Virus record (IMG/VR): IMGVR_UViG_3300049043_000112
Location: 62,001-126,000 of that record
DNA from: a virus
Reading direction: 5' to 3' (one strand)
Length of the DNA: 64,000 nucleotides
Position 1 is the first letter of the stretch. Every line of letters starts with the position of its first letter. This document shows positions 17,817-36,876 of the stretch, piece by piece. Under the pieces are notes generated by a model. The model saw only the letters and a list, made by a program, of their open reading frames with translations. It had not been told where the DNA came from and did not search any database. Made by a program: the position numbers and the translations under genes.

Positions 17817-17873
17817 AGTGTAGAGTGGCGGGGGTCAGTTGCGACCCCCTGGTGGACAGTTGCTGGATTGTCA
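17817..17873 (-). promoter_or_regulatory. TGNCA-type promoter element before 17598-17789
   Basis: TGACA-N10-TGTCCAC, 29 bp, then TACACT. The spacer contains GGGGGTC-N6-GACCCCC. Confidence 0.65.
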
Positions 17874-18059
17874 GTCCAGGGCGCCCTCTTCATTCAGGAC
17901 GCCGCAGGCAAACTCCAGACCGTTGCCCAGATCATAGATGCCCAGGTACAGGCGACCGATGCTGATGCCCAGGTACTCACCGCTGCGGGCGGGGGCGTTC
18001 AGGTCAAAACCGAAGTAGAACAGGTCGGCGTTGATCAGGTCGTGAGTGTTGAAGCGCAT
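17871..18059 (-). CDS. Small hypothetical protein (62 aa), GC-rich island
   Basis: MRFNTHDLINADLFYFGFDL then ISIGRLYLGIYDLGNGLEFA. Beta-rich. Promoter element and TCTCTCAGTTCAC leader upstream. Unknown role. Confidence 0.65.
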   Translation of the reverse strand: MRFNTHDLINADLFYFGFDLNAPARSGEYLGISIGRLYLGIYDLGNGLEFACGVLNEEGALD

Positions 18060-18083
18060 GGGGTTCAGGTGTGAACTGAGAGA

Positions 18084-18140
18084 ATTGTAGAGCAGTTTAG
18101 GGTCAGTGCTCAGGACCGTGTGCCAGTTGCTCAGGCGGTT
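18084..18140 (-). promoter_or_regulatory. TGNCA-type promoter element before 17871-18059
   Basis: AACCG-N10-TGGCACA, 29 bp, then TACAAT. Confidence 0.65.
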
Positions 18141-18337
18141 GCCAGGGCGGATTCGAAGTTGATCTCCCGCTCTTCAATCTCTGCCCAATCATACTCTCCC
18201 TGTTCACCAGGAGCGCCCTCCAGTTGCTCAGCGTATGCCTGGGCGGTGGACTTGCAATCGAACAGGCGCAGGGAGCGGAAGTCGGCACCCTCATACTGGA
18301 TGCAACCGATCACAGCGTAGACACGTTGCTGAGGCAT
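18131..18337 (-). CDS. Small hypothetical protein (68 aa), GC-rich island
   Basis: MPQQRVYAVIGCIQYEGADF then RLFDCKSTAQAYAEQL and an acidic tail. The pattern beta-strand, FDCKSTAQAYAEQ helix recurs in small phage proteins that handle conditional stress, but no function is assignable. Confidence 0.65.
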   Translation of the reverse strand: MPQQRVYAVIGCIQYEGADFRSLRLFDCKSTAQAYAEQLEGAPGEQGEYDWAEIEEREINFESALATA

Positions 18338-18360
18338 TGGGGTTCCTTTGAACTGAGATC

Positions 18361-18417
18361 AGTATAGAGGGTCAGGTGGGGGGTTGGTGCCCCCGTGTGC
18401 CAGTGCCTCAATCGGCA
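18361..18417 (-). promoter_or_regulatory. TGNCA-type promoter element before 18131-18337
   Basis: TGCCG-N10-TGGCACA, 29 bp, then TATACT. The left half lies in the last codons of the upstream gene. Confidence 0.7.
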
Positions 18418-18584
18418 TAGAGGGATTGGAAGTCCTCCACAAACTCCCGTGCCTCATCGCCACTCATGCGGGAGATCATCTCCCGCCCGACGGTCTCCCA
18501 GGAGAAGTCGTCTGCCAGGTCGTAGATTGCGACACGTGCCTGGTTGGCGGTCATCCAGGCGGCGTTGATCTGGTCGTAGGACAT
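18408..18584 (-). CDS. Small hypothetical protein (58 aa), GC-rich island
   Basis: MSYDQINAAWMTANQARVAI then WETVGREMISRMSGDEAREF. Helical and acidic. The start is the ATG following the TATACT leader; the longer in-frame extension would cover the promoter. Confidence 0.65.
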   Translation of the reverse strand: MSYDQINAAWMTANQARVAIYDLADDFSWETVGREMISRMSGDEAREFVEDFQSLYAD

Positions 18585-18608
18585 GGGTTGGTTGGTTGAA
18601 CTGATGTA

Positions 18609-18665
18609 AGTATAGAGGGTCAGGCGGTCAGAACCCTGCCTGCTGTTCCAGTTGGTCAAGTGGCA
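18609..18665 (-). promoter_or_regulatory. TGNCA-type promoter element before 18408-18584
   Basis: TGCCA-N10-TGGAACA, 29 bp, then TATACT. The whole palindrome lies within the 3' coding end of the gene at 18628-18816. Confidence 0.7.
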
Positions 18666-18816
18666 CACGGTTCCAGGTGGAGAACAGAGTCACGTGATCC
18701 AGAATGCGGCACATCGTATCGGTGTCGGTCTGGGGGTCATCCAGCACCTGATCCATGCCGATGCTCATCAGGCGGTGGATCACGGCGTAGGTCTCCTGAC
18801 TGATGGTGATCTCCAT
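18628..18816 (-). CDS. Small hypothetical protein (62 aa), GC-rich island
   Basis: MEITISQETYAVIHRLMSIG then DPQTDTDTMCRILDHVTLFS. Helical; the last 12 codons also encode the next gene's promoter element. TACAAT with the CTCAACCGCAACAGACCC leader upstream. Confidence 0.65.
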   Translation of the reverse strand: MEITISQETYAVIHRLMSIGMDQVLDDPQTDTDTMCRILDHVTLFSTWNRVPLDQLEQQAGF

Positions 18817-18848
18817 GGGTCTGTTGCGGTTGAGAGTATTGTAGCAGG

Positions 18849-19031
18849 TCAGCGGCGGTCGGTGAGTGCCAGGAAGGCGAACCCTGCCAGGCAGATCAGG
18901 GCGATGATGCCTGCGGCGGTCACATCCTGCTGCGTCAGTTGGGGGCGGGGACTGGAGGTGCCGACGCTGCTACCGTGCCCTGTGAAGCAGCTGGTGCAGA
19001 CGGGAACGTAGGCGGCGAAGGGGGCAGGCAT
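18849..19031 (-). CDS. Small membrane protein with CxxC motif (60 aa)
   Basis: MPAPFAAYVPVCTSCFTGHG, a linker, and a C-terminal hydrophobic helix (AAGIIALICLAGFAFLAL) ending TDRR. Probably a single-pass inner-membrane protein with a small Cys-containing domain. The start is set by the TACAAT leader. Confidence 0.6.
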   Translation of the reverse strand: MPAPFAAYVPVCTSCFTGHGSSVGTSSPRPQLTQQDVTAAGIIALICLAGFAFLALTDRR

Positions 19032-19053
19032 CGGGTCTGTTGCGGTTGAGATC

Positions 19054-19111
19054 ATTGTAGGGGGTGGCGCCCCTCTCTGGTGAGGTTTGATGGACGGTTC
19101 TCCAATTGGCA
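19054..19111 (-). promoter_or_regulatory. Weak TGNCA-type promoter element before 18849-19031
   Basis: TGCCA-N10-CGTCCAT, 30 bp, then TACAAT. The right half is degenerate but the spacing is right. Confidence 0.45.
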
Positions 19112-19131
19112 CACTAAATAGTTGTTGCCTG

Positions 19132-19201
19132 GTTTGTGTGGTAACTTGTCAGGTTGGGGAGATTTTATCATCTCCCCTTATAAATAATACACCACACAAA
19201 C
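19132..19201 (+). promoter_or_regulatory. Late-expression switch before the HNH gene
   Basis: Order on the plus strand: 5' arm GTTTGTGTGGT (19132-19142), hairpin GGGGAGAT-N6-ATCTCCCC (19156-19177), late promoter TATAAATA (19179-19186), 3' arm ACCACACAAAC (19191-19201), ATG at 19211. The arms pair over 11 bp. A transcript from upstream would contain both arms; one from the late promoter would lack the 5' arm. Confidence 0.65.
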
Positions 19202-19210
19202 ATAGAGCAG

Positions 19211-19651
19211 ATGAAAGAAATTGCAGGGCATCCTGGTTACTTTGTCACAGAAGATGGCAGAGTGTTTAGTAACAAATCAGGAGAGTTAAAAGAAAGAAAG
19301 CAGTATAAACATAAAAAAGGATATAAGATAATCTGCATCAATACGGAGGGAAAACAATATACTTTGAGGGTGCATAGATTAGTTGCAGAATTGTATATCC
19401 CAAATCCAAACAATTTACCTCAAGTTAATCATAAAGATGAGGTCAAAGATAATAACCACATTAACAACTTAGAGTGGTGTGATAATCAATACAACTGCGA
19501 ATATTCACACGCAAAGACGCATAAAATAAAAACCCCCACAGGTGAAACTGTAGAGGTCTTTAATATCAGAAAGTTTTGTAGAGAGAATAACCTTCACTCT
19601 GGTGCTCTATACACTAGAGGAAAGAATAAAGGTTATTCTCTCATTAATTAG
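19211..19651 (+). CDS. HNH homing endonuclease (NUMOD4 + HNH)
   Basis: 146 residues. The N-terminal NUMOD4 motif MKEIAGHPGYFVTEDGRVFS is followed by the HNH core VHRLVAELYIPNP, PQVNHKDEVKDNNHINNLEW and a C-terminal NUMOD-like DNA-contact module. AT-rich in a GC-rich island and on the opposite strand to its neighbours, so an inserted selfish element. It overlaps the convergent gene by 4 nt. Late promoter and hairpin upstream suggest late expression. Confidence 0.9.
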   Translation: MKEIAGHPGYFVTEDGRVFSNKSGELKERKQYKHKKGYKIICINTEGKQYTLRVHRLVAELYIPNPNNLPQVNHKDEVKDNNHINNLEWCDNQYNCEYSHAKTHKIKTPTGETVEVFNIRKFCRENNLHSGALYTRGKNKGYSLIN

Positions 19652-19887
19652 AAGGCGACTAACTGATCAATGGTCCACTGATCAACCTCCTGAACGTCGC
19701 CACCGCAGTTCTTCCGCAGCCAGGCGTTGATGTGCTTCGTGGTGGTGCTGCTCCACTTGTGGGCGGTGCGGATCCAACCCTTACCAGGCACCAGGGCGGC
19801 AACGGGGGTCACGTAGGAGAACAGGATGCAGGTCCCGTCTGCCAGTTGCACCTCAGTCTGGTTGCTGCCGATCTGTTGGACGATCAT
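19648..19887 (-). CDS. Conserved cyanophage protein (79 aa)
   Basis: MIVQQIGSNQTEVQLADGTC, then FSYVTPVAALVPGKGWIRTA and KWSSTTTKHINAWLRKN. This arrangement (beta strands, TPVAA, then WSxTTxKHIN helix) is widespread in phages as an uncharacterised family. Function unknown. Confidence 0.75.
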   Translation of the reverse strand: MIVQQIGSNQTEVQLADGTCILFSYVTPVAALVPGKGWIRTAHKWSSTTTKHINAWLRKNCGGDVQEVDQWTIDQLVAF

Positions 19888-19909
19888 GGGGTTCCTTTGA
19901 ACTGATGTA

Positions 19910-19967
19910 AGTATAAGGGGTCAGACGGTCAGGGAGGCGGGGGGTTGTGCCACTGGTTTAAGTGTCA
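19910..19967 (-). promoter_or_regulatory. TGNCA-type promoter element before 19648-19887
   Basis: TGACA-N10-TGGCACA, 30 bp, then TATACT. Confidence 0.75.
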
Positions 19968-20075
19968 CCACCACCATGGGGTTCTGGGGTTGACTTTCAT
20001 CCCCATGGCAGCACACAGTATGGGGAACCCGATGGCAACGACCATCAGCAGGGCGGCGGCAAGGTAGTGATTCAT
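19965..20075 (-). CDS. Tiny membrane protein (36 aa)
   Basis: MNHYLAAALLMVVAIGFPIL then CAAMGMKVNPRTPWWW. One transmembrane helix and a Trp-rich end. Its ATG overlaps the upstream stop (ATGA), so it is translationally coupled. Confidence 0.55.
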   Translation of the reverse strand: MNHYLAAALLMVVAIGFPILCAAMGMKVNPRTPWWW

Positions 20076-20188
20076 CGGGCGATCAGGTCGGCGGTAGTGT
20101 GCAGCACGTCAGCTGTCACACTGCGGACGGGACGGATCGGTTCCCATAGTAGCCAGAGCAGCGTGGCAGCGATCAGGATGCGGAGCAT
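20072..20188 (-). CDS. Tiny membrane protein (38 aa)
   Basis: MLRILIAATLLWLLWEPIRP then VRSVTADVLHTTADLIAR. N-terminal hydrophobic helix plus an amphipathic helix. Third-to-last of three coupled small genes. Confidence 0.55.
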   Translation of the reverse strand: MLRILIAATLLWLLWEPIRPVRSVTADVLHTTADLIAR

Positions 20189-20191
20189 GGG

Positions 20192-20338
20192 TCAGGCGGC
20201 AAGGTGAGCAGGGGAACCACAGGAGCGGTAGAAGTCTACCATGCGCTCCGCCTCTTCAAGGGTGGGGAACCACTGGGAGCGCCACTCACACTGGTTGTAG
20301 GGGACCTGGTAACGGACTTCGTAGCGAATCAGTGCCAT
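20192..20338 (-). CDS. Small hypothetical protein (48 aa)
   Basis: MALIRYEVRYQVPYNQCEWR then FPTLEEAERMVDFYRSCGSP. Beta-beta-helix pattern. First gene of the 20338-to-19965 unit with its own promoter element. Confidence 0.6.
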   Translation of the reverse strand: MALIRYEVRYQVPYNQCEWRSQWFPTLEEAERMVDFYRSCGSPAHLAA

Positions 20339-20360
20339 GGGGTTGGTTGCTGATGAAATC

Positions 20361-20417
20361 AGTATAAGGGGTCAGGGTGCCAGGTCTACGGGGTGTGTGC
20401 CACCTGTTCAACTGGCA
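20361..20417 (-). promoter_or_regulatory. TGNCA-type promoter element before 20192-20338
   Basis: TGTGCCA-N10-TGGCACA, a perfect 7-bp palindrome, then 29 bp and TATACT. Confidence 0.8.
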
Positions 20418-20448
20418 CACGGGCAGCCGACCTGAGTATACCTAACTC

Positions 20449-21345
20449 CTACGCTGCCACGTTGAAGCGCCCAGCGTTGAAGTTATGATAAGCGAAGACC
20501 TCACGATTCACCAGTTTGAACATACCAAACTCATTAGAGAGAACATAACCTTCGGCATCAATTCGGTTGCCGTTGATGTATGCTGCAGGACCATTGTTGC
20601 GGCACAGGAACAGGCAGTCATCTTTGATCGACTTCACCAACGCCCACAGACGCAGCAGGTTAGCATCACAATCAAAGTCCTCTGCTACGATCTCATCACC
20701 AGCACGAATGTAGGCATTGATCTGTTGTTTGATTCGTGCTGCCTCTTTATCACTCACAAAGGTTGCAGTGGTTGCCATTTGACGGGCGAACATGCACACC
20801 TCTTCAACATCAGCGAACGACGTTTGACCGTGCTGGATGTATGCTTCAGGTTGCACGAACAGAACGTGCTCAGTGCTCTGCAGATTCACCATCAGAGGCT
20901 CTGCCCAACTGTCACGAAGATCGTCGTTTGCTTCATACACAGTGTGCGGAGCGATGATAATGTTCTGGGTCACAATGTCTCCGAACAGATAGGTAATCGT
21001 GTTGGGAGTGTACTCATTCAGACCACCAAACCCGATAAAGTCACCCTGAATGATAGACTCAGTACGGGGCAGATGGTCAAGGCACGAGTGCAGAATTTGG
21101 GCAACTTCACCCTGATAGAACGCATCAACCTCCTCATGATTGTGGGCAATACGAATCTTTTTCTTGTTAAAGACTGCTTTGGTTCCTACAAAGAACTCAC
21201 CGCAGGCAGGATCAATACCCCACACGATTGCAGGACTTCCATCAATTTTTACACTTAACTTACCAGGATTGACAAACCAATCCAAAACCGACAAATCTCC
21301 CGTAAGGATGGTATCTTCAGGATGTTCGAGGTGTGTGTTTTGCAT
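20449..21345 (-). CDS. KxDG-motif nucleotidyltransferase/ligase-like protein
   Basis: 298 residues. LSVKIDGSPAIVWG (Lys at about 33) matches motif I (KxDG) of covalent nucleotidyltransferases; GEFFVGTKAVFNKK and SIIQGDFIGFGG fit later motifs of an uncharacterised T4-like phage family with a ligase-type adenylation fold. Start: the ATG giving MQNTHLEHPEDTIL, after the AATACT promoter; an upstream in-frame codon lies inside the promoter element. Substrate unknown. Confidence 0.65.
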   Translation of the reverse strand: MQNTHLEHPEDTILTGDLSVLDWFVNPGKLSVKIDGSPAIVWGIDPACGEFFVGTKAVFNKKKIRIAHNHEEVDAFYQGEVAQILHSCLDHLPRTESIIQGDFIGFGGLNEYTPNTITYLFGDIVTQNIIIAPHTVYEANDDLRDSWAEPLMVNLQSTEHVLFVQPEAYIQHGQTSFADVEEVCMFARQMATTATFVSDKEAARIKQQINAYIRAGDEIVAEDFDCDANLLRLWALVKSIKDDCLFLCRNNGPAAYINGNRIDAEGYVLSNEFGMFKLVNREVFAYHNFNAGRFNVAA

Positions 21346-21366
21346 TGCTTGTTTGTTGATGCCTTT

Positions 21367-21424
21367 AGTATTGCACGGATTCAGGAGGACCACAAGGGGT
21401 CTTGTGCCAGTTCTCAAAGTGGCA
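21367..21424 (-). promoter_or_regulatory. TGNCA-type promoter element before 20449-21345
   Basis: TGCCA-N10-TGGCACA, 30 bp, then AATACT. The opposite strand here carries the late promoter of the HNH gene at 21462. Confidence 0.75.
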
Positions 21425-21429
21425 TATAA

Positions 21430-21437
21430 TATAAATA
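21430..21437 (+). promoter_or_regulatory. Late promoter TATAAATA for the HNH gene
   Basis: An exact TATAAATA on the plus strand, 24 bp before the ATG at 21462. A short GGGGTC/GACCCC pair flanks it, weaker than in the other endonuclease genes. Confidence 0.65.
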
Positions 21438-21461
21438 AAATAGACGGACCCCAGCAACTTT

Positions 21462-21932
21462 ATGAATCTAATACAACGAAACGCAATACAATTTGAAACA
21501 CCAAAGTTTCAAATTGAAATGAACGAATGGATTAGAATTGCCAGTGATCAAATAAGAAAAAGACACAGTAGGACTAGAGTAGGAAAGGTCAAACATTCTA
21601 GGTGTGATGCTAAACCAGTCCTGAAAGAAGAAGATTATTGTTATTACACTGGCATTAGATTTGCAGATGTGGAACAACAATTTGTCAATCCAAATGACCC
21701 ACGAAAAAGATCATTAGATCATAAAATTCCTCTAGCAATTTGTTACATCAACGGAATGACAATGGATGAAGCGAATCATCCAGACAATCTATGTTGGTGC
21801 CTAAAAGTTATAAACAATATCAGGGGCACTTCAGACCTTGAATCATTCAAACCTGTTGCAGAATACTATAGAAAAAAGTTCATAGAAGCAGGATACGATT
21901 ATACATCCTCTTCAAGTTGCTCTGCAGGGTAG
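21462..21932 (+). CDS. HNH endonuclease
   Basis: 156 residues. CYYTGIRFADVEQQF, then PNDPRKRSLDHKIPLAICYI and NLCWCLKVINNIRG: a Cys-containing HNH site with the catalytic LDHKIP. A lone homing-type endonuclease on the strand opposite its neighbours. Its last 34 nt overlap the convergent gene. Confidence 0.85.
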   Translation: MNLIQRNAIQFETPKFQIEMNEWIRIASDQIRKRHSRTRVGKVKHSRCDAKPVLKEEDYCYYTGIRFADVEQQFVNPNDPRKRSLDHKIPLAICYINGMTMDEANHPDNLCWCLKVINNIRGTSDLESFKPVAEYYRKKFIEAGYDYTSSSSCSAG

Positions 21933-22102
21933 TTAAAGAGTTTATTAATCCTCTCAACTTCCTGCTCAAAAAACTCCATTGCTTCTAGGGATTCAATACC
22001 ATTATCCTCAGCAAGTTCGCCAAGTTTCCACCGCAAATCATTCATCTCCCTAAGTTGAGTTAGAATGAACAAACGAACCTCATTCTTTTGTGATTGTTTC
22101 AT
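21899..22102 (-). CDS. Small coiled-coil-like protein (67 aa)
   Basis: MKQSQKNEVRLFILTQLREM then DLRWKLGELAEDNGIESLEA. Helical and charged. Coupled to 22102-22290 by a TGATG overlap. Confidence 0.65.
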   Translation of the reverse strand: MKQSQKNEVRLFILTQLREMNDLRWKLGELAEDNGIESLEAMEFFEQEVERINKLFNYPAEQLEEDV

Positions 22103-22290
22103 CAGGCGCAGTTGATAACTTTGTTTGCAGTCTGGCGACTAATCTCAAAATCGCAAATCAGTTCCTCCACGATGTCATCATTGCTGACATTAAAGTGGCG
22201 GGAGTGGAGAACGTAATTAAGGCATTCTTCAAGATGACTGATTTCGTAACCCGTTGAAAAAGCAAGTTGTTCGAGGTGTGTGTTTTTCAT
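22102..22290 (-). CDS. Small acidic protein (62 aa) sharing a leader with 20449
   Basis: MKNTHLEQLAFSTGYEISHL then DIVEELICDFEISRQTANKV. The region from the -10 box through codon 7 is nearly the same as at the 20449 gene (TGCAATACTAA, then AACACACACCTCGAAC), though the rest differs. Possibly a small helix-turn-helix-like protein. Confidence 0.65.
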   Translation of the reverse strand: MKNTHLEQLAFSTGYEISHLEECLNYVLHSRHFNVSNDDIVEELICDFEISRQTANKVINCA

Positions 22291-22296
22291 ACTGTT

Positions 22297-22354
22297 AGTA
22301 TTGCACGAAAAAGGGGAGACCGCAACCCCCCTTGTGCCACTCTCTCAACCGTCC
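22297..22354 (-). promoter_or_regulatory. TGNCA-type promoter element before 22102-22290
   Basis: GGACG-N10-TGGCACA, 30 bp, then AATACT. The spacer has a GGGG/CCCC hairpin followed by T5, a rho-independent terminator. Confidence 0.75.
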
Positions 22355-22533
22355 TCCAGCAGATCGGGATAGTAAGATTCAACCTCAGAAATCAGTTCCT
22401 CATCAGTATAGCTGGTGATGTTTTCTTCCATCTGATCACCAACAATACGAAGCAAATCCTTGGTGCTCATGTTATCAAGCAAACGGTCAATGTATGCTTC
22501 AACGAGTGCTTGACGATTGAAAGTGTTGCTCAT
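22345..22533 (-). CDS. Conserved small cyanophage protein (62 aa)
   Basis: MSNTFNRQALVEAYIDRLLD then RIVGDQMEENITSYTDEELI and EVESYYPDLLEDG. This pattern recurs in cyanophage genomes. Acidic and helical; unknown role. Confidence 0.7.
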   Translation of the reverse strand: MSNTFNRQALVEAYIDRLLDNMSTKDLLRIVGDQMEENITSYTDEELISEVESYYPDLLEDG

Positions 22534-22538
22534 TGGTT

Positions 22539-22715
22539 TCAGTTAGAGGGGAAGTTAGCGCAGACAGCATCACACAGGACACGAACTAAGTCATCGAATT
22601 GTTCCTGTGAGTTGGGGAAATGTTCGCAGAAGAACTTATCACAGATAGCATCAATGTCCTCCATCAGTTGTTCACGAGCAGTCAACATTTCCAGTTTAGG
22701 ATTCAATTCAGTCAT
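22539..22715 (-). CDS. Small acidic protein (58 aa)
   Basis: MTELNPKLEMLTAREQLMED then DDLVRVLCDAVCANFPSN with four Cys. Last gene of a three-gene unit (22539-23016) with TGATG couplings. Confidence 0.6.
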   Translation of the reverse strand: MTELNPKLEMLTAREQLMEDIDAICDKFFCEHFPNSQEQFDDLVRVLCDAVCANFPSN

Positions 22716-22891
22716 CAGTCGTTGGTGGGATGATTTACAATTTGGTCTTCAATTTGGTTCGCAAGTTCTTCCATAAACTTACGATCTTCTTCCTCATCCT
22801 CAAACTGTGCATTGTTTCGCACAATTTGCATCAGAAACTCAATTTGTTCGTCAGTGAAGTGATACTCTTTGAGTGTTTGATTCCAAGTCAT
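22715..22891 (-). CDS. Small acidic protein (58 aa)
   Basis: MTWNQTLKEYHFTDEQIEFL then EDEEEDRKFMEELANQIEDQ. Acidic and helical; overlaps both neighbours' stop/start codons. Confidence 0.6.
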   Translation of the reverse strand: MTWNQTLKEYHFTDEQIEFLMQIVRNNAQFEDEEEDRKFMEELANQIEDQIVNHPTND

Positions 22892-23016
22892 CAGTAATCG
22901 TAGTTTGCGTTCAGGTACTCATTCACATCAAACTTTTCATCACGAAGTTCGGGAATGTCAAGGTCAAAGATCTCACCAGGAGCATCTTGAATCTCAGACC
23001 AGAGTTCATCAAACAT
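22891..23016 (-). CDS. Small acidic protein (41 aa)
   Basis: MFDELWSEIQDAPGEIFDLD then LRDEKFDVNEYLNANYDY. First gene of the unit, 25 bp from the TACATT box. Confidence 0.55.
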   Translation of the reverse strand: MFDELWSEIQDAPGEIFDLDIPELRDEKFDVNEYLNANYDY

Positions 23017-23040
23017 GGTGCATCTCTCAGGGACGAATGT

Positions 23041-23098
23041 AATGTATCAGGGTCTGGGGGGCATTGCAACCCCCTATGTGCCACTCTCTCAACTGGCA
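23041..23098 (-). promoter_or_regulatory. TGNCA-type promoter element before 22891-23016
   Basis: TGCCA-N10-TGGCACA, 30 bp, then TACATT. The spacer carries a GGGGG/CCCCC hairpin. Confidence 0.8.
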
Positions 23099-23107
23099 CA
23101 AGAATTC

Positions 23108-23242
23108 TTATACAAACTCCGCAAGATAGTAATCTAAAGGCAACTCAAGTTCTGCCGCTTTAAATTCCCATTCGTCCCATTCTTCAGGGGAAGCATCATT
23201 GAAAAAATCTTCCCGAGTATAACCAGAAGCAGGACCACACAT
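23108..23242 (-). CDS. Small acidic protein (44 aa), paralogue of 27334-27516 at its C-terminus
   Basis: MCGPASGYTREDFFNDASPE then WEFKAAELELPLDYYLAEFV. The last 17 residues match the end of 27334-27516 (KAAELEVTVDYYIQEFV). The start is taken at the ATG downstream of the TATGTT box. Confidence 0.6.
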   Translation of the reverse strand: MCGPASGYTREDFFNDASPEEWDEWEFKAAELELPLDYYLAEFV

Positions 23243-23267
23243 TGACAACAATTGCGACGACCTGAGT

Positions 23268-23325
23268 AACATAAACCACCACGTGGCAGATATCAAGGGG
23301 TCTTGTGCCAGTTACGAAACTGTCC
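23268..23325 (-). promoter_or_regulatory. TGNCA-type promoter element before 23108-23242
   Basis: GGACA-N10-TGGCACA, 30 bp, then TATGTT. Confidence 0.7.
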
Positions 23326-23437
23326 ACCAAACCCCCCACAAGGTCCCTTGCCGTGATATCTTAATATTAATCGAATGAGGGGAAGGGTATCCCTGCAGAC
23401 GAAAATACATCGCCACTCCCCCTGCCATAAAATATTC

Positions 23438-23466
23438 ATTCGCAATAAGAAACCCTTATTGCGAAT
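23438..23466. repeat. 12-bp inverted repeat, third copy at 24562-24573
   Basis: ATTCGCAATAAG-N5-CTTATTGCGAAT is a perfect stem. It lies where the -10 box would be expected for the element at 23475. The same 12-mer recurs at 24562-24573. Confidence 0.7.
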
Positions 23467-23474
23467 AAGAGTCT

Positions 23475-23496
23475 TGTGCCAATATTTAAACTGTCA
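23475..23496 (-). promoter_or_regulatory. TGNCA-N10-TGGCACA element without a -10 box
   Basis: TGACA-N10-TGGCACA lies just after the stop of 23499-23651. At the usual distance there is a 12-bp inverted repeat instead of a -10 box, so this copy may be disrupted. Confidence 0.55.
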
Positions 23497-23498
23497 CA

Positions 23499-23651
23499 CT
23501 AATCGAACGGGTCGAATTCTTTTACCCTACAATGAATATCTTCCCCTGGTTCGAGTTGCAATAACTCTCTCCAGTCCACGTGATCTAGATTTAGGTCATC
23601 ATAACACATAATGTCTAGTGTAACCTGTATGATGCGCTTCTGTGCTAACAT
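23499..23651 (-). CDS. Small conserved cyanophage-type protein (50 aa)
   Basis: MLAQKRIIQVTLDIMCYDDL then LDHVDWRELLQLEPGEDIHC. The xVTLDIxxYDDL...DWRELL pattern recurs in small cyanophage proteins. Acidic; unknown function. Confidence 0.6.
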   Translation of the reverse strand: MLAQKRIIQVTLDIMCYDDLNLDHVDWRELLQLEPGEDIHCRVKEFDPFD

Positions 23652-23683
23652 GGTGTCTAGATGTGTATGTGTACTAGATTATA

Positions 23684-23836
23684 TCATGCATAATGACGAT
23701 ACGCAAGCTCGTTATAGTCTTGCGAATCACGTGCATAATCCTCGTCGAGCTCCTGTGCATCTAGTGCATAATACTCTTCGAGATCGTATGAATAGTCTGA
23801 TGCGTATGTATAGTCGAGATCGTAATCGTCGTACAT
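23684..23836 (-). CDS. Tyr/Asp-rich tiny protein (50 aa)
   Basis: MYDDYDLDYTYASDYSYDLE then EYYALDAQELDEDYARDSQD. About a quarter Tyr and a quarter acidic. The frame contains dense CTCGA/TCGAG motifs related to the arms before the HNH gene at 23978. TACAAT lies about 30 bp upstream. Confidence 0.5.
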   Translation of the reverse strand: MYDDYDLDYTYASDYSYDLEEYYALDAQELDEDYARDSQDYNELAYRHYA

Positions 23837-23872
23837 AACTCGTCGAGCTTATTGAATGCTTGTATATTGTAG

Positions 23873-23972
23873 CATAAAGCTAGTCGAGATGCAATATGAT
23901 CTAGATGTAGATCTCGACTAGCTTCTAGTACATATATATGCGATCTGAGTTGATTTCTCGACTAGCTTTATG
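23873..23972 (+). promoter_or_regulatory. Three-arm hairpin region before the HNH gene
   Basis: Arm 1 (23873-23890, CATAAAGCTAGTCGAGAT) can pair with arm 2 (23911-23924, 14 bp) or arm 3 (23956-23972, 17 bp). Arm 3 ends 5 nt before the ATG at 23978, so the arm 1-arm 3 stem would block ribosome binding and the arm 1-arm 2 stem would free it. No clear late box is present. Confidence 0.6.
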
Positions 23973-23977
23973 TTAGA

Positions 23978-24343
23978 ATGGAAATAATGTTTAGACTAGA
24001 TTTTATGATGAGATCTCTACGAGAATTAAATCCACTTCTCGAAGGGTATTATGCAACATATGATGGAAAAATAATATCTCGAAAAAATAAATTACTTAAA
24101 CAGTTTAGAAGAAACAAACAATCCAGATGTCCGTACTTAACTATAAGTGTCTGGGATAAAAGTGTTGGGTTTGCAAGACCATTTTTTGTACACCGACTTG
24201 TAGCATATCAATATTGCAATTTAAATATTGAAGATGTAGAAGGTCTTGTAGTTAATCACATCGATGGTAATCCTTATAATAATCACGCGCAAAACTTAGA
24301 ATGGGTTACGCAACGGGAGAATATATTAAAATCAAAATTATAG
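23978..24343 (+). CDS. HNH homing endonuclease
   Basis: 121 residues: LEGYYATYDGKIISRKNKLL (NUMOD4-like), then FFVHRLVAYQYC and VVNHIDGNPYNNHAQNLEWV, the HNH core (HRLV, NHIDGN, NLEWV). On the strand opposite its neighbours. Expression probably controlled by the alternative hairpins just upstream. Confidence 0.88.
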   Translation: MEIMFRLDFMMRSLRELNPLLEGYYATYDGKIISRKNKLLKQFRRNKQSRCPYLTISVWDKSVGFARPFFVHRLVAYQYCNLNIEDVEGLVVNHIDGNPYNNHAQNLEWVTQRENILKSKL

Positions 24344-24712: not shown

Positions 24713-25462
24713 ATGGAAAGAGGCATCATTTACCTTATTCTCAACAAGCAAACAGGTGAAAAATACGTCGGAAACACCACACTTGCGATGAATAAAGAAT
24801 GGGTACACCACATAGACCGTTCTAAAAGAATGTCTGCTGAACCCTTACATAAAGCATTCAGACAGCACGGTGTACATAACTTTATGATTAAAGAGTTAGA
24901 TGAATATGATGATACTTGTTTAAACAATAAACTGAATGAATGGATTAAGAAATATAAACCTGAATACAATCCTATTATTACAAAAGAACCAATACAAGAA
25001 AAGCAGAAAGAACCAGTAATACCTAAACCAAAACCTAAAAGTAAAAGAAATGTATCAACATCTCATCTTACACCTTGGAATAATAGTATACGTGGAGATG
25101 GTAAACACTGTGGTATCAAGATAAGAGGTAAGAACTTAGAAACTGGTTTATGTACTGACTATGAAAGTGCAAGAGTCGCAGCAATAGAAGTGACAGGTGA
25201 TCCGAATACCAATCGTAATATTCTAAATGCTGCCAGAAGTGGTATTATTGCATACGGGCATCGCTGGCAGATATTAGAAGAGAAGCAAAAGAAAAAAGCG
25301 GTATTTGGTGTCAATAAAAAAACGGAGATGATTGGTCCCCGTTATGAAAGTATTAATGCTGCTGTTCGTGCCTTTGAATGTACCGATAAGAACGGAATTC
25401 TCAAGAGTTTGAAGAATCCTGGTAAGTATTCATGGAAAGGACACTGGTGGTTCTTTGGGTGA
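24713..25462 (+). CDS. GIY-YIG homing endonuclease
   Basis: 249 residues. GIIYLILNKQTGEKYVGNT fits the GIY-YIG core (GIY as GII, YIG as YVG), with LHKAFRQHGVHNFMIKELDE. A Lys/Pro linker follows, then HLTPWNNSIRGDG-type and NUMOD1-like repeats (YESINAAVRAFECTDKNGIL) for DNA recognition. Plus strand among minus-strand genes. Confidence 0.8.
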   Translation: MERGIIYLILNKQTGEKYVGNTTLAMNKEWVHHIDRSKRMSAEPLHKAFRQHGVHNFMIKELDEYDDTCLNNKLNEWIKKYKPEYNPIITKEPIQEKQKEPVIPKPKPKSKRNVSTSHLTPWNNSIRGDGKHCGIKIRGKNLETGLCTDYESARVAAIEVTGDPNTNRNILNAARSGIIAYGHRWQILEEKQKKKAVFGVNKKTEMIGPRYESINAAVRAFECTDKNGILKSLKNPGKYSWKGHWWFFG

Positions 25463-31169: not shown

Positions 31170-31226
31170 ATTATAGGAGCATACAGGGGCATTTCAGGAA
31201 GCCCTGTGCCACCCGTTAAACTGTCA
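31170..31226 (-). promoter_or_regulatory. TGNCA-type promoter element before 30690-31148
   Basis: TGACA-N10-TGGCACA, 29 bp, then TATAAT. One of the best copies. Confidence 0.82.
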
Positions 31227-31625
31227 CATAAACGCTTCCACGCCAACAGGATTGCCGAAACTATAGTCATATTCAAGGGCGTTGGCACAGACAAAATGTG
31301 GATGTTTTACGTCAACACCAAGACGTTCACACAATTCCTTATGATTATCCTCCATAAGTTCCACAGCGTACAGCATATTATCCAAAATATGTTCGGAAGA
31401 GTGATATTCCTTGAGTTTTTCGTACAGTGCAACCATAAAGTTGCCAGAACCAGCAGAATTATCAAGAAATGTGCTTTTAGGATTTTTCAGCACATCTTCT
31501 GGAATTTCAGATACCATCTTGGCGCAAAGTTCTGCAGGAGTGAATACTTCACCAGTTGCATCAATCCTGTCATCAGAGCGTTCAATCTCCGACCCGACCA
31601 TTTCATTATGCTTATTCTTGGACAT
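31224..31625 (-). CDS. Split adenine methyltransferase, AdoMet-binding half
   Basis: 133 residues. DATGEVFTPAELCAKMVSEI is the motif-X region of Type I/IIG N6-adenine methyltransferases, FLDNSAGSGNFMVAL (53-67) is motif I, MLYAVELMEDNHKELCERL motif II, and CANALEYDY motif III. It ends before motif IV (NPPY), which is on the separate upstream protein 31628-32623. Probably associates with it to methylate DNA. Last gene of the operon. Confidence 0.78.
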   Translation of the reverse strand: MSKNKHNEMVGSEIERSDDRIDATGEVFTPAELCAKMVSEIPEDVLKNPKSTFLDNSAGSGNFMVALYEKLKEYHSSEHILDNMLYAVELMEDNHKELCERLGVDVKHPHFVCANALEYDYSFGNPVGVEAFM

Positions 31626-31627
31626 AC

Positions 31628-32623
31628 TTAGGATACCTCATTAAAAGGCGATGGAATTTTTTTGAACAGATCTTTAGTAGGATGAAAAGAAGTCATATTC
31701 ATCTTAACAAGTTCCTTAACCTTATCAGACATAAGGTAATCTCTAAGAATGACTGCATCCTCGATTGTATCCGTTTTTAGGAACACAACACTGAAAGTAA
31801 CAGATGCTTCATAAGGTTTGATCATAATTTTACCCAGTCCACCCCACTCTGCTGCCATATTCATAATGACACCGTGCTGATTGCGACCAGTTTCTTCTAA
31901 ACCAGGTTCAATATACCTAATTTTTGGAGTCTCTTCTGTCCCAAGAATTTCAACAATCGGAACACCACCAGGATGATCTTTGATTGCATTCCGATACAGA
32001 TTTCCGTTAAAATACCTGTGTGCCATATTGTTAGAAACTTGATCAATAAAGTTAGGATTGTCCAACTTGATCAAGTCTTTCTCTGTCAGATTTTTTTCAA
32101 TAACTGTACCGTCCTTATAAGTAACCTTGCAAGGTCCTTTGTGATTTTTATCCCAGGTTACAACACAAGTTTGAGTATTCTGAACAGTCGGAAACGTTTC
32201 TGGCGGAAGGTATTGAATAGAAACCAAATTCCCAGAACTGAACAGTTTTTTTCTAAAATTAGAGGAAGATTTCATAAAGTGTTTTGCCCTAATAATTAGA
32301 GAAACTCTGTCAGCAATTTCTGTGCTTTTCGTAAAGAAATCAGAATCCAAATTATTAGAACAACCACCCGTATTAGCACCACTAACTTTAGAGCGATCGG
32401 AATATGGAGGGTTACCGATTACAACATTAAACCTCATACCTTTATCCGCAAGTTCTAAAAATTCCTGAAAATCTACAACTACATTTATTTTATCATTTAT
32501 CTGATTGATTGTATAGATGTGCCTAGGATCATTCTCCCAAACCCAAATATTCTCTGGTGAATATTTTTTAAGGGCAACCATCGAATGAGTACCCTTAGGG
32601 TCTCCAATAATCAGGAGGTTCAT
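31628..32623 (-). CDS. Split adenine methyltransferase, NPPY catalytic half
   Basis: 331 residues. NVVIGNPPYSDRSK (NPPY at 71-74) is catalytic motif IV of N6-adenine methyltransferases, followed by SLIIRAKHFM and a C-terminal region resembling target recognition. The N-terminus NLLIIGDPKGTHSMV / NIWVWENDP looks like a degenerate AdoMet fold, so it may be a second partial domain. Overlaps the helicase stop (ATGA) and lies 2 bp from 31224-31625. Confidence 0.78.
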   Translation of the reverse strand: MNLLIIGDPKGTHSMVALKKYSPENIWVWENDPRHIYTINQINDKINVVVDFQEFLELADKGMRFNVVIGNPPYSDRSKVSGANTGGCSNNLDSDFFTKSTEIADRVSLIIRAKHFMKSSSNFRKKLFSSGNLVSIQYLPPETFPTVQNTQTCVVTWDKNHKGPCKVTYKDGTVIEKNLTEKDLIKLDNPNFIDQVSNNMAHRYFNGNLYRNAIKDHPGGVPIVEILGTEETPKIRYIEPGLEETGRNQHGVIMNMAAEWGGLGKIMIKPYEASVTFSVVFLKTDTIEDAVILRDYLMSDKVKELVKMNMTSFHPTKDLFKKIPSPFNEVS

Positions 32624-34740
32624 ACGTTCAACATTTCTTCAAACAAGTCTACTGGAATACCCTGCTGAGTCTGCGCCGACTCGGACAGTTTATCAAGTGT
32701 CACAACCTTGTTGTTCTGCATAGAATGTTGTACGTCAACATATGCTTTACTGATTCGGGTACTCAACGATTTACGATTGATAACTCCATACTCCAATGCC
32801 ATCTGCAGGATGTTTTCATCGTCAAGAGTTACTGGTTGATAATGAGCAGACTCAAGAACAGAGTCGATGTTGTTCATAACTTCACCAGAATTGATGGCGT
32901 GAAAAAGAACAAGAGGAATTCTCTCCAAAATTGCTTGAATGGTTTCAATCTTTTGGTAGATTTCATCTTTGACAGACTTTTGCAGTTCGTTTACCCGTTT
33001 CTTGTTACTTTTACCGTTAGCATTATTATCATTCAGTTGAACAGATTTTGCAACGTTAGAGTTGACTGCTGCAAGACTTAAGTTGAAGTCAAGTTCACGA
33101 AGTTTGCTGTAGTCAAGAGAAGTAGCAAGACTAGACACAAGACGAATAGCATTACCAACATCTGCTGCCAGAATTTCATTCACTTTCTCAGCAGAAAGAG
33201 TTTCAAATCCCTGATTCCATTCACTGATGGCAACATAATCCGTGAAATCATATTCCGCAACTTCAGGAGAAGTGTCACAAGCAGCAACAAATGTCTGCCG
33301 AAGTGATTCCAAACAACGTTGCGGGCAGAAGTCAATTACAGTCCAGTCTTTATCAGAAGAACCACCACGGAAAGCAAATTGTGTCCAGAATTCGATACTA
33401 CTGCCCTCTGCACAGTTGATAATCGTATCAACTTCAGAAGCAGTTACACCAAGAACATTAGCGGTACGTGTCAGAATGCAAGAACCGTTAGGATTTTGTG
33501 CGATATGGAGGTTGATATCCTCAGCATCTTTACCAGTGTCTCCAGTAACAACAAGAGGAGCAAACCTTGTACCTTCCATATACTTGCTAATAGCATGGCA
33601 AGCAGCAACAGAGGGCAACGTCATATAAAGATGAGTTGAATCCTTCAGCAGACGATGTTGAGGGCGAAGAGTACGTTGAGTTTCGAAATGATTGGTAACA
33701 AAATCTTGAACCAAAGAAGGTTCTACAAAATTACCTTCATCATCAACTCGGAACAGATTCTTCATAGCATCAGGGTCATCTCCAAAGAGTTCTTGATACT
33801 GTGCAGAAGCATATTTTGCAAGAACAACCTTCATAGAGGGGCGGTTAATCAGACCACGCTTCTTGTCGAGTTGTTCCTCATAGTAAGAGTAAATGTAACG
33901 GTTGGAATTGTTAAAATCCCAAACCATTTTATATGCAGTTCCAGTTACATACAGAACCTTACAATCATAAGAATTTTGAAGTTCAGTCCACTGCTTTGAA
34001 CCATATCCAATATGTGCCTCATCATAAACAATCAGGTCAATATTGCAAGGAAGGTTTGTAAGTTTACGACTCTGAATACAACCCCAGAGAACCAGTTGTT
34101 TATCAGTCTTCAGATACTTCTCAATCTCCTGCTCATAACCTTTCTTATTCAGGTCAATGTAGACCAGATTCTCAAAGTTCTTAAAATTAGAATCTTCACG
34201 CCAAGATTGTTCTGGCGACTTGTATCGGGAGACCACAAGTGTTACCTTGACACCACTTTCTACAATGGCACTCAGCACCATCATAGATTTACCAGCACGA
34301 CACTTTGCAAACAGCAGAAACTCTTTCCACTCTTCCCAGTTTGAAAGAACTTTAGTTACAAATTCTTGCTGGTGCTTATAGAGTTCCCGAGTCTCTGCAA
34401 CTTTATTGACAGATTGGGCACCTTGATACTGCTCCAGTTCATAAGCAGCATCTTCCACAGTGATAAAGAACCACTCACGGTCCTTATCATCACGAGTTTT
34501 ATTATACCCTTGCTTCAGAAGATGCTTGTGAAACTCCTTATCACCAAATGTAGTTTCATACACACCCTTAGTAATAAGTTGCTGAGGGTTAGAAGTTGTA
34601 TCTTGCTGATTGATACGGTCTTCTGCTTCTTCTTGTTGCGTGTCTCCAATCTTCAGCATCGGCACACGACCAAGTTCAACCTGATCCTCGTAGTGTGCTT
34701 TAGTTGAATAAAAATAGATTTTCTTTTGAAGAGTAATCAT
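32620..34740 (-). CDS. GIY-YIG-like (T5orf172) / SF2 helicase fusion, restriction-like
   Basis: 706 residues. Residues 1-95 (KIYFYSTKAH, PMLKIGDTQQEEAEDRIN, REWFFI) match the T5orf172/GIY-YIG-like domain. The SF2 helicase follows: FAKCRAGKSMM Walker A at about 146-154, DEAH at 240-243, LYVTGTAYK motif III-like, and a helicase C domain with RTANVLGVTASEVDTIIN and FAFRGGSSDKD. A nuclease-helicase layout beside a methyltransferase suggests a restriction subunit. First large gene of the operon 31224-34869. Confidence 0.8.
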   Translation of the reverse strand: MITLQKKIYFYSTKAHYEDQVELGRVPMLKIGDTQQEEAEDRINQQDTTSNPQQLITKGVYETTFGDKEFHKHLLKQGYNKTRDDKDREWFFITVEDAAYELEQYQGAQSVNKVAETRELYKHQQEFVTKVLSNWEEWKEFLLFAKCRAGKSMMVLSAIVESGVKVTLVVSRYKSPEQSWREDSNFKNFENLVYIDLNKKGYEQEIEKYLKTDKQLVLWGCIQSRKLTNLPCNIDLIVYDEAHIGYGSKQWTELQNSYDCKVLYVTGTAYKMVWDFNNSNRYIYSYYEEQLDKKRGLINRPSMKVVLAKYASAQYQELFGDDPDAMKNLFRVDDEGNFVEPSLVQDFVTNHFETQRTLRPQHRLLKDSTHLYMTLPSVAACHAISKYMEGTRFAPLVVTGDTGKDAEDINLHIAQNPNGSCILTRTANVLGVTASEVDTIINCAEGSSIEFWTQFAFRGGSSDKDWTVIDFCPQRCLESLRQTFVAACDTSPEVAEYDFTDYVAISEWNQGFETLSAEKVNEILAADVGNAIRLVSSLATSLDYSKLRELDFNLSLAAVNSNVAKSVQLNDNNANGKSNKKRVNELQKSVKDEIYQKIETIQAILERIPLVLFHAINSGEVMNNIDSVLESAHYQPVTLDDENILQMALEYGVINRKSLSTRISKAYVDVQHSMQNNKVVTLDKLSESAQTQQGIPVDLFEEMLNV

Positions 34741-34743
34741 GAT

Positions 34744-34869
34744 TCAGTAAACAAATTCAGAAGCAAAATCAATAGTGTCGTCGGATTCAAGGTAACCCAT
34801 CCAATCTTGTGGATTGGTCTCATAGATTGCAATTTCCCGCAGTTCATCAATCAGTTCAGACAGATCCAT
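34744..34869 (-). CDS. Tiny acidic protein leading the methyltransferase-helicase operon (41 aa)
   Basis: MDLSELIDELREIAIYETNP then MGYLESDDTIDFASEFVY. Very acidic. It sits between the operon promoter and the helicase gene with a GAGGG ribosome site. An acidic leader protein could be an inhibitor or regulator of the operon products (inference). Confidence 0.55.
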   Translation of the reverse strand: MDLSELIDELREIAIYETNPQDWMGYLESDDTIDFASEFVY

Positions 34870-34892
34870 AAGAAACCCTCAGTTACTTGTTT

Positions 34893-34948
34893 ATTATAGC
34901 AGAAAACCCGCCTTAAGGGCGGGTCGTGTGCCAGTTCTCAGACTGCCA
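34893..34948 (-). promoter_or_regulatory. TGNCA-type promoter element for the methyltransferase-helicase operon
   Basis: TGGCA-N10-TGGCACA, 28 bp, then TATAAT. The spacer is a rho-independent terminator (ACCCGCC-loop-GGCGGGTTTTCT). Confidence 0.8.
34901..34924 (-). terminator. Rho-independent terminator inside the promoter spacer
   Basis: ACCCGCC-CTTAA-GGCGGGT then TTTCT on the minus strand, between the half-sites and the -10 box; it would stop transcripts from 34938-35352. Confidence 0.75.
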
Positions 34949-35375: not shown

Positions 35376-35942
35376 TTAGTATAATGCCTCTTCCAGCGGA
35401 TTCTGGGTGCCTTGTGCCACCTCTTCAACTGGCACATACAAGGTTCCATACTTGCCAAAAGCAGTCTTGAATTGCTGCAGATTTTTTCCAAGATAAACCA
35501 CGGCAGACTGGAAGGGTGCAGCACCTTTCCCATCACCAAACTTCAATCGACGATTAACTGCAATCCAAGGATATTTGGCAATAGACTTCCACCACTGTGT
35601 AGAAACATCTAGTTTAATCAACAGAACCATCTCTTTAGCGTTTCCACACTCATATTGTGAAGCAGCATATGGAATCCAACGCTTACTGTCACTGTAAGGG
35701 TGATTCATAAAAACGCTTTCTGCAGTCCAAGGATGCGACAACCCATTGGTCTTTTCAGTGTAAACCTTTTTTGCAGGAACATTTGGTGATTGTTCATCAT
35801 TAGAACAAGGGTCGAGTTCTAATTCTCCACCAAAGAAATCTAGTACATCTGCAACAAATTCTGGTGGCGTATTCCAACAATCTGTACGATTACCAGTTGT
35901 TGCAGTAAGTGCCTTAAGAGCAGTTGATACCACAAATTGCAT
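35376..35942 (-). CDS. Dam-type phage N6-adenine DNA methyltransferase
   Basis: 188 residues matching the phage Dam family: RTDCWNTPPEFVADVLDFFG, GELELDPCSNDE (motif I-like, 42-48) and VFMNHPYSDSKRW. The catalytic motif is NHPY rather than NPPY/DPPY. Likely protects phage DNA or marks it. Promoter is sigma-70 consensus. Its last 20 codons contain the next gene's promoter element. Confidence 0.82.
   Translation of the reverse strand: MQFVVSTALKALTATTGNRTDCWNTPPEFVADVLDFFGGELELDPCSNDEQSPNVPAKKVYTEKTNGLSHPWTAESVFMNHPYSDSKRWIPYAASQYECGNAKEMVLLIKLDVSTQWWKSIAKYPWIAVNRRLKFGDGKGAAPFQSAVVYLGKNLQQFKTAFGKYGTLYVPVEEVAQGTQNPLEEALY
35378..35434 (-). promoter_or_regulatory. TGNCA-type promoter element before 34938-35352
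   Basis: TGTGCCA-N10-TGGCACA palindrome, 29 bp, then TATACT, entirely within the 3' coding end of the Dam-type gene. Confidence 0.82.
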
Positions 35943-36237: not shown

Positions 36238-36876
36238 TTAAGTGGAAAATAAAAACTCGGTAATATATTTTTGTGAAAAATCTTTTCCAAAGTAAGATTT
36301 TAAAATACCGAATGCAGGATTGTTAGATGCCATATGGTAATTATACTTTTGATGCATCGTTTCAAATGATTTTGAAGATTTATTGCAAATAGATATGAGT
36401 TTTTTATATTGGTGCAAATAATTTTTAACCCAAATTAGATATTCATTATAGAAATCTTCTCTTTGTTTTTTTATCCACATTTTATTTGAAAAAAATTCTT
36501 TTAAGTCATAAAATTTTGAATATTCAATTTTAATATCTGGAAACTCCGAAAGTAACTTCAAATATTCTATATTATCTGAGATGGGATGAAAATCAATGGC
36601 AGCTAAATGTCTTTTATTTGATATATTTACATATTCTGTCCCAAATATTGGATAGTCATAGTCCGAATTTGGATATATTACCAATGCTTCCGCTTCAAAC
36701 TTGTTTTCTATTTGTAATTCACAGAGTCTAATTCTTGTAAAAACATCAGAATCCCACAAATAAGACCTTAAAGTTGCATTTTTAGATTTAATTTCAAAAC
36801 TTAACCAGTCTGGAAGATTTCTCTGATTTAAAACAAAAAAATCTTTAATTATTTCATTTAATGATATTTTATTCAC
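36238..36876 (-). CDS. Ferredoxin-dependent bilin reductase (PebA/PcyX/PebS family)
   Basis: 212 residues. YPNSDYDYPIFGTEYVNISN and HLAAIDFHPIS, then FFSNKMWI, YLIWVKNYLHQYKKL and YNYHMASNNPAFGILKSYFG match the FDBR fold. These enzymes reduce biliverdin to phycobilins using ferredoxin. The sequence looks closer to PebA/PcyX types than to PebS, but I cannot assign the product. GTG start overlaps the upstream stop. AT-rich and Lys-rich versus neighbours, suggesting separate acquisition. Confidence 0.82.
   Translation of the reverse strand: MNKISLNEIIKDFFVLNQRNLPDWLSFEIKSKNATLRSYLWDSDVFTRIRLCELQIENKFEAEALVIYPNSDYDYPIFGTEYVNISNKRHLAAIDFHPISDNIEYLKLLSEFPDIKIEYSKFYDLKEFFSNKMWIKKQREDFYNEYLIWVKNYLHQYKKLISICNKSSKSFETMHQKYNYHMASNNPAFGILKSYFGKDFSQKYITEFLFST

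Follow-up and report, generated by a model that had tools for sequence, protein, structure and literature searches.

We identified, in the genome of a marine cyanophage, a locus that we believe, with a probability of roughly 60%, encodes a restriction-modification-like module, in which a two-chain adenine methyltransferase of permuted layout, with a constant SAM-binding subunit (here called motI), is combined with a translocase/nuclease built of a T5orf172 domain and an SF2 helicase-like ATPase. The locus is located on the minus strand of the window, i.e. the whole 64,000-nt stretch of DNA that was analysed, and its genes follow each other in the order helicase, NPPY chain, motI (Table 1). The start and stop codons of the helicase and NPPY genes overlap by 4 nt, and a gap of 2 nt separates the NPPY gene from motI. 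The initial annotation had assigned the catalytic NPPY motif to one chain and motifs X and I–III to another; our analysis recovered the open reading frames at the same coordinates and confirmed these motifs, with Pfam domain scores above the cut-offs. It had also counted a 41-aa acidic leader among the components of the operon. In L102/L076 the leader is found upstream of the helicase gene, with 85% conservation, but we rejected it as a component of the system, because in three other loci (L045, L025 and L027) its homologues occur downstream of motI; it belongs to an independent small family of conserved phage genes and is not an obligate part of the operon.

Table 1. Positions of the genes, domains and motifs of the locus within the window
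Feature	Position	Strand	Evidence
T5orf172 (GIY-YIG-type nuclease) + SF2 helicase-like ATPase, 706 aa	32620..34740	-	Pfam, phrog_22930, conserved motifs
T5orf172 domain, helicase chain residues 8-97	34450..34719	-	Pfam
ResIII / SF2 helicase domain, helicase chain residues 118-268	33937..34389	-	Pfam
NPPY chain, catalytic/target-recognition part of putative N6-adenine methyltransferase, 331 aa	31628..32623	-	Eco57I, AF2 model
Motif IV (NPPY), NPPY chain residues 71-74	32402..32413	-	Conservation in alignment
Short divergent Rossmann half of the NPPY chain (GDPKGTHS ... WEND ... VDF), without motif X	32435..32623	-	pLDDT, relatives
motI, SAM-binding-type chain with motifs X, I, II and III, without motif IV, 133 aa	31224..31625	-	phrog_4376, N6_Mtase
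Motif X of motI (EVFTP), residues 26-30	31536..31550	-	Conservation
Motif I of motI (DNSAGSGNF), residues 55-63	31437..31463	-	Pattern match
Acidic leader ORF, 41 aa	34744..34869	-	Homologues in relatives

The helicase chain belongs to the PHROGs family phrog_22930 (E = 3e-225) and contains the Pfam domains T5orf172 (25.2 bits, cut-off 20) and ResIII (29.2 bits, cut-off 22.5). The former match is consistent with the earlier proposal that its N-terminus is GIY-YIG-like, a prediction made at the level of sequence. The T5orf172 domain showed no relative in the PDB by sequence; its positions K-I-G, R-I, F-H-K and REWF are common to L101 and L102, and most of them are also present in L037. In the remainder of the chain, relatives keep the Walker A motif CRAGKS, the DEAH box, TGTAY and QFAFRGG. 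Elsewhere in the window we observed several free-standing HNH/GIY-YIG-like ORFs.

The NPPY chain matches the Pfam family Eco57I (39.8 bits, cut-off 25.3), and the best PDB match of its AF2 model is M.TaqI (E = 2.7e-10, probability 1.00). It combines motif IV, (N/D/S)PP(Y/F), with a TaqI-like catalytic fold, as in the gamma-class Eco57I/TaqI enzymes, and in the alignment of its relatives F65, N71, P72/P73 and Y74 are invariant or nearly so. It is therefore a putative N6-adenine methyltransferase. motI corresponds over its full length to phrog_4376 (E = 8e-74) and matches the Pfam family N6_Mtase from motif X to motif III (22.4 bits, cut-off 20.4). Members of this family have about 133 aa throughout 38 Synechococcus and four Prochlorococcus phage records; EVFTP was found in 110 of 111 sequences, and the pattern of motif I in 106 of them. 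The best match of the motI profile is CamA (E = 1.8e-4), followed by weaker matches to the N-terminal halves of HsdM, BseCI, BsaXI and MmeI. On M.TaqI, motI aligns to residues 17–60 and the catalytic half begins at residue 98, i.e. the cut is complementary.

Searches for the same gene order in other phages revealed that the two halves form a stable pair. A gene with motif IV (N-x-P-Y/F) was found upstream of motI at 75 of 75 IMG/VR loci that could be tested, i.e. those with enough upstream DNA (66 by pattern, nine by reading), compared with 3 of 424 other ORFs as background, and conversely motI lies directly downstream in 80 of 80 loci found with the catalytic half, although many of the loci in these counts belong to related cyanophages and are not independent events. 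At the 75 loci the motif-IV gene usually overlaps motI by 7–31 nt; otherwise one gene intervenes. In 77 of the 80 loci (P-SSM2-type) the catalytic chain begins exactly at motif IV and has no Rossmann half of its own. The motI of phage ACG-2014f C25, at 36 kb, at first looked like an orphan; this was ruled out by a 301-aa motif-IV protein, starting MKFDVVIGNPPY, at 137 kb, these two being the only such genes found there. Both families co-occur in the same 26 of 26 ACG-2014f records, about 100 kb apart, and the IMG/VR scan found no relatives of the 301-aa half. In all three sets the complementary motifs thus reside on co-occurring chains. Because the same pair is kept in so many other phages, the split looks, on comparative grounds, like a working design rather than a broken gene.

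In gamma-class enzymes motif I precedes motif IV, whereas beta-class enzymes have the order IV-TRD-X-I-III. The view of the initial annotation that motif I comes first in ordinary enzymes thus holds for the former class but not for the latter, and the reversed order as such has natural precedent. The separation of the halves, their reversed gene order and the link with a GIY-YIG-type/SF2 chain are conserved across phage families, as we could confirm. ORF084 of Aeromonas phage Aeh1 carries both halves in one fused chain, in the order IV-TRD-X-I-III, as do three relatives; the model of the fused Aeh1 protein is poor (pLDDT 63.5) and gave a weak Foldseek match (LlaGI, E = 0.008).

Among 33 helicase loci, motI directly follows the NPPY gene or domain in 31. 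The second-last, L104, was considered as a locus without motI, which is ruled out by a motI elsewhere on the contig, and L132, the remaining one, is distantly related. In MA01 and L112–L130 the helicase is fused to the NPPY chain and motI remains separate. Sister phages exchange the helicase/NPPY cassette, with one breakpoint at the start codon of motI: isolates of S-CAM7 have 98% DNA identity from nt 8964 on (the start codon is at 8965), whereas their helicase and NPPY chains are only about 27% identical. Comparison of ACG-2014f C24 with C25 reveals a helicase-NPPY insertion directly after motI. One constant SAM-binding subunit might act in trans with a number of exchangeable catalytic/recognition chains, among them those encoded about 100 kb away and those joined to a GIY-YIG-type/SF2 restriction motor, as a combinatorial system of adenine methylation and restriction whose specificity changes by cassette exchange; we give this extended version slightly less than an even chance.

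The closest known analogs are the Type ISP enzymes LlaGI and LlaBIII, which contain a nuclease, an SF2 helicase-like ATPase, an adenine methyltransferase and a recognition domain (PMC4666363). The same parts would form one unit here, and the fused relatives (MA01, L112–L130) have them in one chain in the order nuclease-helicase-methyltransferase-TRD. The SF2 ATPase is thus shared, but the nuclease is of the T5orf172/GIY-YIG type instead of Mrr, and in place of the single chain the window encodes three, with the helicase on its own chain and motI separate. The PADLOC entry REase_MTase_IIG PDLC03626 (1359 aa) aligns with a bacterial T5orf172-SF2 chain (151–627), phage motI (868–935) and a bacterial NPPY-TRD chain (1010–1359); it is one chain with motif I before motif IV, whereas the phage locus encodes three and its motif-I half lies downstream, and its profile matched neither the helicase nor the NPPY chain of the window. 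A clostridial operon (L133, L134, L139, L151) also has three components, including a small motif-I chain without motif IV (motif I EPACG[DN]GNF), but in the order small chain-methylase-helicase; its methylase is full length, with an altered motif I of its own (DPACKTG; DPACK[TS]GVF in the NPPY chains). Clostridial and phage helicases are 21–23% identical, and a small chain 26%.

M.AquI and M.EcoHK31I are natural two-chain DNA methyltransferases as well; however, they are cytosine-C5 enzymes with motifs I–VIII on one chain (PMC3404938), whereas here an adenine enzyme is cut between motifs III and IV and its gene order is reversed. MTA1-MTA9 resembles the proposed pair in that unequal methyltransferase-like chains join in a complex that makes 6mA (PMC9174199), but it belongs to an unrelated family, and in our pair the motif for catalysis and the canonical SAM motif are on different chains. 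A circularly permuted, single-chain M.EcoKI-like (gamma-type) adenine methylase was reported in jumbo phages (PMC7824862) and may correspond to the Aeh1 fusion; the passages of that article consulted contain no description of a split pair, a constant subunit or a helicase cassette. In the open-access papers searched, to which this statement is confined, we found no split adenine methylase of cyanophages.

In the model that we favor, the NPPY chain would perform catalysis and target recognition, and motI, as the constant chain with the canonical motifs X, I, II and III, would supply SAM. The two, presumably as a physical heterodimer, would methylate DNA, probably at adenine, in a site set by the C-terminal region of the NPPY chain, and this methylation would label the DNA of the phage itself. 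The T5orf172-SF2 chain would act as an ATP-driven translocase/nuclease in the manner of Type ISP or Type III enzymes, cleaving unmodified DNA of the host or of a competing phage, and the module may thereby be used against competitors.

The single-chain arrangement of PDLC03626 could suggest that a single methyltransferase gene broke recently and left the two parts as its fragments, an alternative that the initial annotation had raised itself. We regard it as exceedingly improbable, and effectively ruled out, by the conservation of the two genes over several phage families, the purifying selection on motI (median dN/dS 0.14), the precise split point and the overlapping starts. A stronger challenge comes from the N-terminal half of the window's NPPY chain. 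The initial annotation called this start degenerate and Rossmann-like, which is true of its sequence, yet residues 1–70 are predicted to fold confidently (pLDDT 92–95), and relatives conserve GDPxGxHS, PENIWVWEND and the motif-III D-F in this region. Owing to this half modelled in cis and the match to the M.TaqI fold, the NPPY chain may be able to fold fully without motI; the picture of a single enzyme divided in two is therefore exact only for those relatives whose catalytic chain starts at motif IV, and the window's motI is an additional SAM-binding-type chain. Profile comparison detected no homology between the N-terminal half and motI. The NPPY chain could then be a compact complete methyltransferase and motI an accessory (a regulator, a SAM carrier or an inactive paralog) that shares no active site with it here; bacterial NPPY chains have a full N-terminal half too, and S-CAM7 CC03_55 carries a canonical-looking DPAMGGG. 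We nevertheless consider this rather unlikely: motI is equally obligate beside chains with and without the N-terminal half, the latter could not work alone, and in the window the NPPY chain has no motif X and GDPKGTHS in place of motif I, while EVFTP and DNSAGSGNF are kept by the small chain.

The function may also differ from the one proposed above. The operon could shield phage DNA from host restriction or aid the degradation of host DNA instead of targeting rival phages, with the helicase-nuclease as a separate DNA-processing factor; many relatives of the P-SSM2 type have only the split methyltransferase and no fused helicase, and PMC7824862 counts methylases of phages among the means of counter-restriction and suggests a role of T5orf172 in recombination. 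However, many relatives have the helicase-nuclease and the NPPY chain joined in one polypeptide, and cassette exchange replaces both at once, as expected of a site-coupled restriction enzyme, which makes this explanation fairly doubtful. Still more improbable is a homing-like scenario, in which the helicase-NPPY pair serves chiefly as a mobile element that its GIY-YIG-type nuclease spreads, with the methylase marking genomes already occupied. Its clean presence or absence beside motI in ACG-2014f, its wholesale replacement in S-CAM7 and the free-standing HNH/GIY-YIG-like ORFs would fit such a cassette, but motor and methylase parts are atypical of homing genes, and cassettes that differ from each other all require a constant motI next to them.

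If the restriction-modification-like reading is correct, several phage families would possess an adenine methyltransferase naturally divided between SAM-binding and catalytic halves in reversed order, and in abundant ocean viruses the SAM-binding half would serve as a shared platform for swappable recognition and restriction cassettes. This would offer phages a simple route to altered methylation specificity, provide a natural split-methylase scaffold, and account for cyanophage protein families labelled "hypothetical", among them the P-SSM2 neighbors T4-GC 33 and 34. That lytic cyanophages would carry working restriction systems against their competitors is a directly testable prediction.

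Three tightly packed genes on the minus strand of the window encode, in this order, a T5orf172/SF2 helicase, a predicted N6-adenine methyltransferase chain carrying the catalytic motif IV (the NPPY chain), and motI, a putative SAM-binding chain without motif IV. The window represents bases 62001-126000 of a virus record of 236,016 bases; the closest protein relatives of its genes come from Synechococcus and Prochlorococcus myoviruses, and its gene content matches a T4-like marine cyanophage. The initial annotation also counted a short leader among the operon components. This was not upheld: the leader gene is conserved among phages and at some other loci lies downstream of motI, and it is therefore no obligate part of the operon.

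Features of the window discussed in the text
Feature	Position	Strand	Evidence
T5orf172/SF2 helicase chain, 706 aa	34740-32620	-	Pfam domains above curated cut-offs
NPPY chain, 331 aa	32623-31628	-	Pfam domain above curated cut-off
motI (motifs X, I, II, III), 133 aa	31625-31224	-	Pfam domain above curated cut-off
Acidic leader, 41 aa	34869-34744	-	
Second methyltransferase, Dam-type, 0.5 kb upstream of leader	35376-35942	-	PF05869 E=3.4e-19
Ferredoxin-dependent bilin reductase, PebS-like cyanophage auxiliary gene	36238-36876	-	PF05996 E=4e-26
88-aa ORF, HicA/YcfA-type-like	16888-17154	-	by eye
HNH-like and GIY-YIG-like ORFs	19211-19651, 21462-21932, 23978-24343, 24713-25462	+	by eye

The GC content is ~0.60 at 16001-20500 vs ~0.30-0.45 in the rest of the phage, and a megablast search of 16001-24000 against the phage collection returned no match. 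The small HicA/YcfA-type-like protein (...KPGGSHDKVTHP...PTHGSKGRPTLSPGMTHEFHK...) is encoded here. The HNH-like and GIY-YIG-like ORFs run in the opposite direction to the phage genes and are probably free-standing homing endonucleases.

The motI family measures ~133 aa throughout 38 Synechococcus and 4 Prochlorococcus phage records. Our scan of IMG/VR retrieved 80 motI loci, 75 of them with sufficient upstream DNA (in the remaining five the contig stops within or ahead of the upstream gene), and all 75 possess an upstream gene with motif IV (N-x-P-Y/F; 66 found by pattern, nine by reading the sequences), against a background of just 3 among 424 other ORFs. The reverse search, from the P-SSM2-type catalytic half (a separate motif-IV chain), found motI directly downstream in 80/80 loci, 77 of which start at motif IV, without any SAM-binding half. 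Both searches support the earlier proposal of separate methyltransferase halves, with the motif-IV gene upstream. In M.TaqI numbering, motI aligns with residues 17-60 and the catalytic half begins at residue 98, which places the split after motif III and ahead of the motif-IV strand.

In most pairs motI overlaps the upstream gene by 7-31 nt. The upstream genes are dissimilar to one another: they include chains of ~190 aa whose first residues are motif IV, chains of ~250 aa with a divergent N-terminal half, chains of ~450 aa with an N-terminal region GIY-YIG-like in appearance, and helicase-NPPY fusions of ~1050 aa, while five loci (L017, L036, L038, L048, L062) carry two different catalytic chains in tandem ahead of a single motI. 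In Bellamy-type loci one gene (Bellamy gene 87, ~190 aa, L005 3436-3999) intervenes between the NPPY gene and motI, with similar spacing in L016-L031 and L049-L059. On reading, it resembles a PD-(D/E)XK nuclease (...DRGIDGRG...VIQFKFK...) and is possibly an alternative restriction arm; it has no family match in Pfam, NCBIfam or PADLOC. Among 33 loci that encode a relative of the helicase (L101-L132 and L042), 31 have motI after the NPPY gene or domain; L104 carries it at another place on the contig, and L132 is only distantly related. MA01 and many IMG/VR loci encode helicase and NPPY parts in a single polypeptide.

The halves also occur far apart or fused. In ACG-2014f isolate C25 motI at first had no apparent partner; the only Eco57I match in this genome is a 301-aa protein beginning MKFDVVIGNPPY, 100 kb from motI, and the two families co-occur in the same 26 ACG-2014f records. 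Isolate C24 has two 301-aa-type chains at a distant site, and an NPPY chain beside motI; only one motI was found in it. In Aeromonas phages (Aeh1 ORF084 and relatives) both parts reside in one chain, in the order IV-TRD-X-I-III (TRD, target-recognition part), and other arrangements of the same parts were found in Klebsiella phage KpV477, Lak megaphages and the uncultured huge phage LR756508.

In this phage, the idea of one enzyme simply divided into two parts is weakened most by the predicted Rossmann half that the NPPY chain carries in cis. The model of this chain (mean pLDDT 74; closest PDB match M.TaqI) is confident in the N-terminal half (residues 1-70, pLDDT 92-95), which packs with the motif-IV strand, so the Rossmann sheet of the window catalytic chain is predicted to be complete, if divergent, and to lack motif X. 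In this setting motI might take the place of this half, bind next to it as a second protomer of SAM-binding type, or serve as an accessory; the model of the fused Aeh1 chain is too weak for docking to be read from it.

motI is under purifying selection (median dN/dS 0.14, 152 pairs), and EVFTP is kept in 110 of 111 sequences. In two S-CAM7 isolates the DNA is 98% identical from nt 8964 of L001 onwards, one base ahead of the motI start codon, while the preceding helicase and NPPY genes differ; what distinguishes ACG-2014f C24 from C25 is a helicase-NPPY insertion starting just past motI. Thus motI behaves like a constant component, and helicase-NPPY like a cassette that can be exchanged.

In Clostridia and other gut bacteria, an operon combines a small chain bearing motif I with a full-length Eco57I methylase and a helicase of the T5orf172-SF2 type. 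Wherever both motifs are readable (L133-L154), the small chain has EPACG[DN]GNF (once EPSCGDGNF) and the methylase DPACK[TS]GVF, i.e. Lys in place of Gly in motif I. Both the bacterial helicase and NPPY-TRD chains and phage motI can be aligned to the single-chain PADLOC profile PDLC03626. The phage system may therefore be related to a known single-chain restriction enzyme, with the parts rearranged. The phage module is proposed to work like Type ISP enzymes but is not a member, since it lacks two of their defining features (a single chain and an Mrr-family nuclease). PMC7824862 already notes that jumbo phages have circularly permuted adenine methylases, and cytosine methylases made of two polypeptides are known (PMC3404938); the open-access literature searched yielded no account of phages with a split adenine methylase whose SAM-binding subunit is constant. 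What the comparisons show directly is the composition of the module, the obligate pairing of the methyltransferase parts, their fusion, the selection on motI and the swapping. The best supported reading is a phage-borne restriction-modification-like module, in which the NPPY chain and motI would form a heterodimeric adenine methyltransferase, with motI supplying SAM and 6mA as the product, and the T5orf172-SF2 chain would act as an ATP-driven restriction arm, whose cleavage may serve to exclude competitors.
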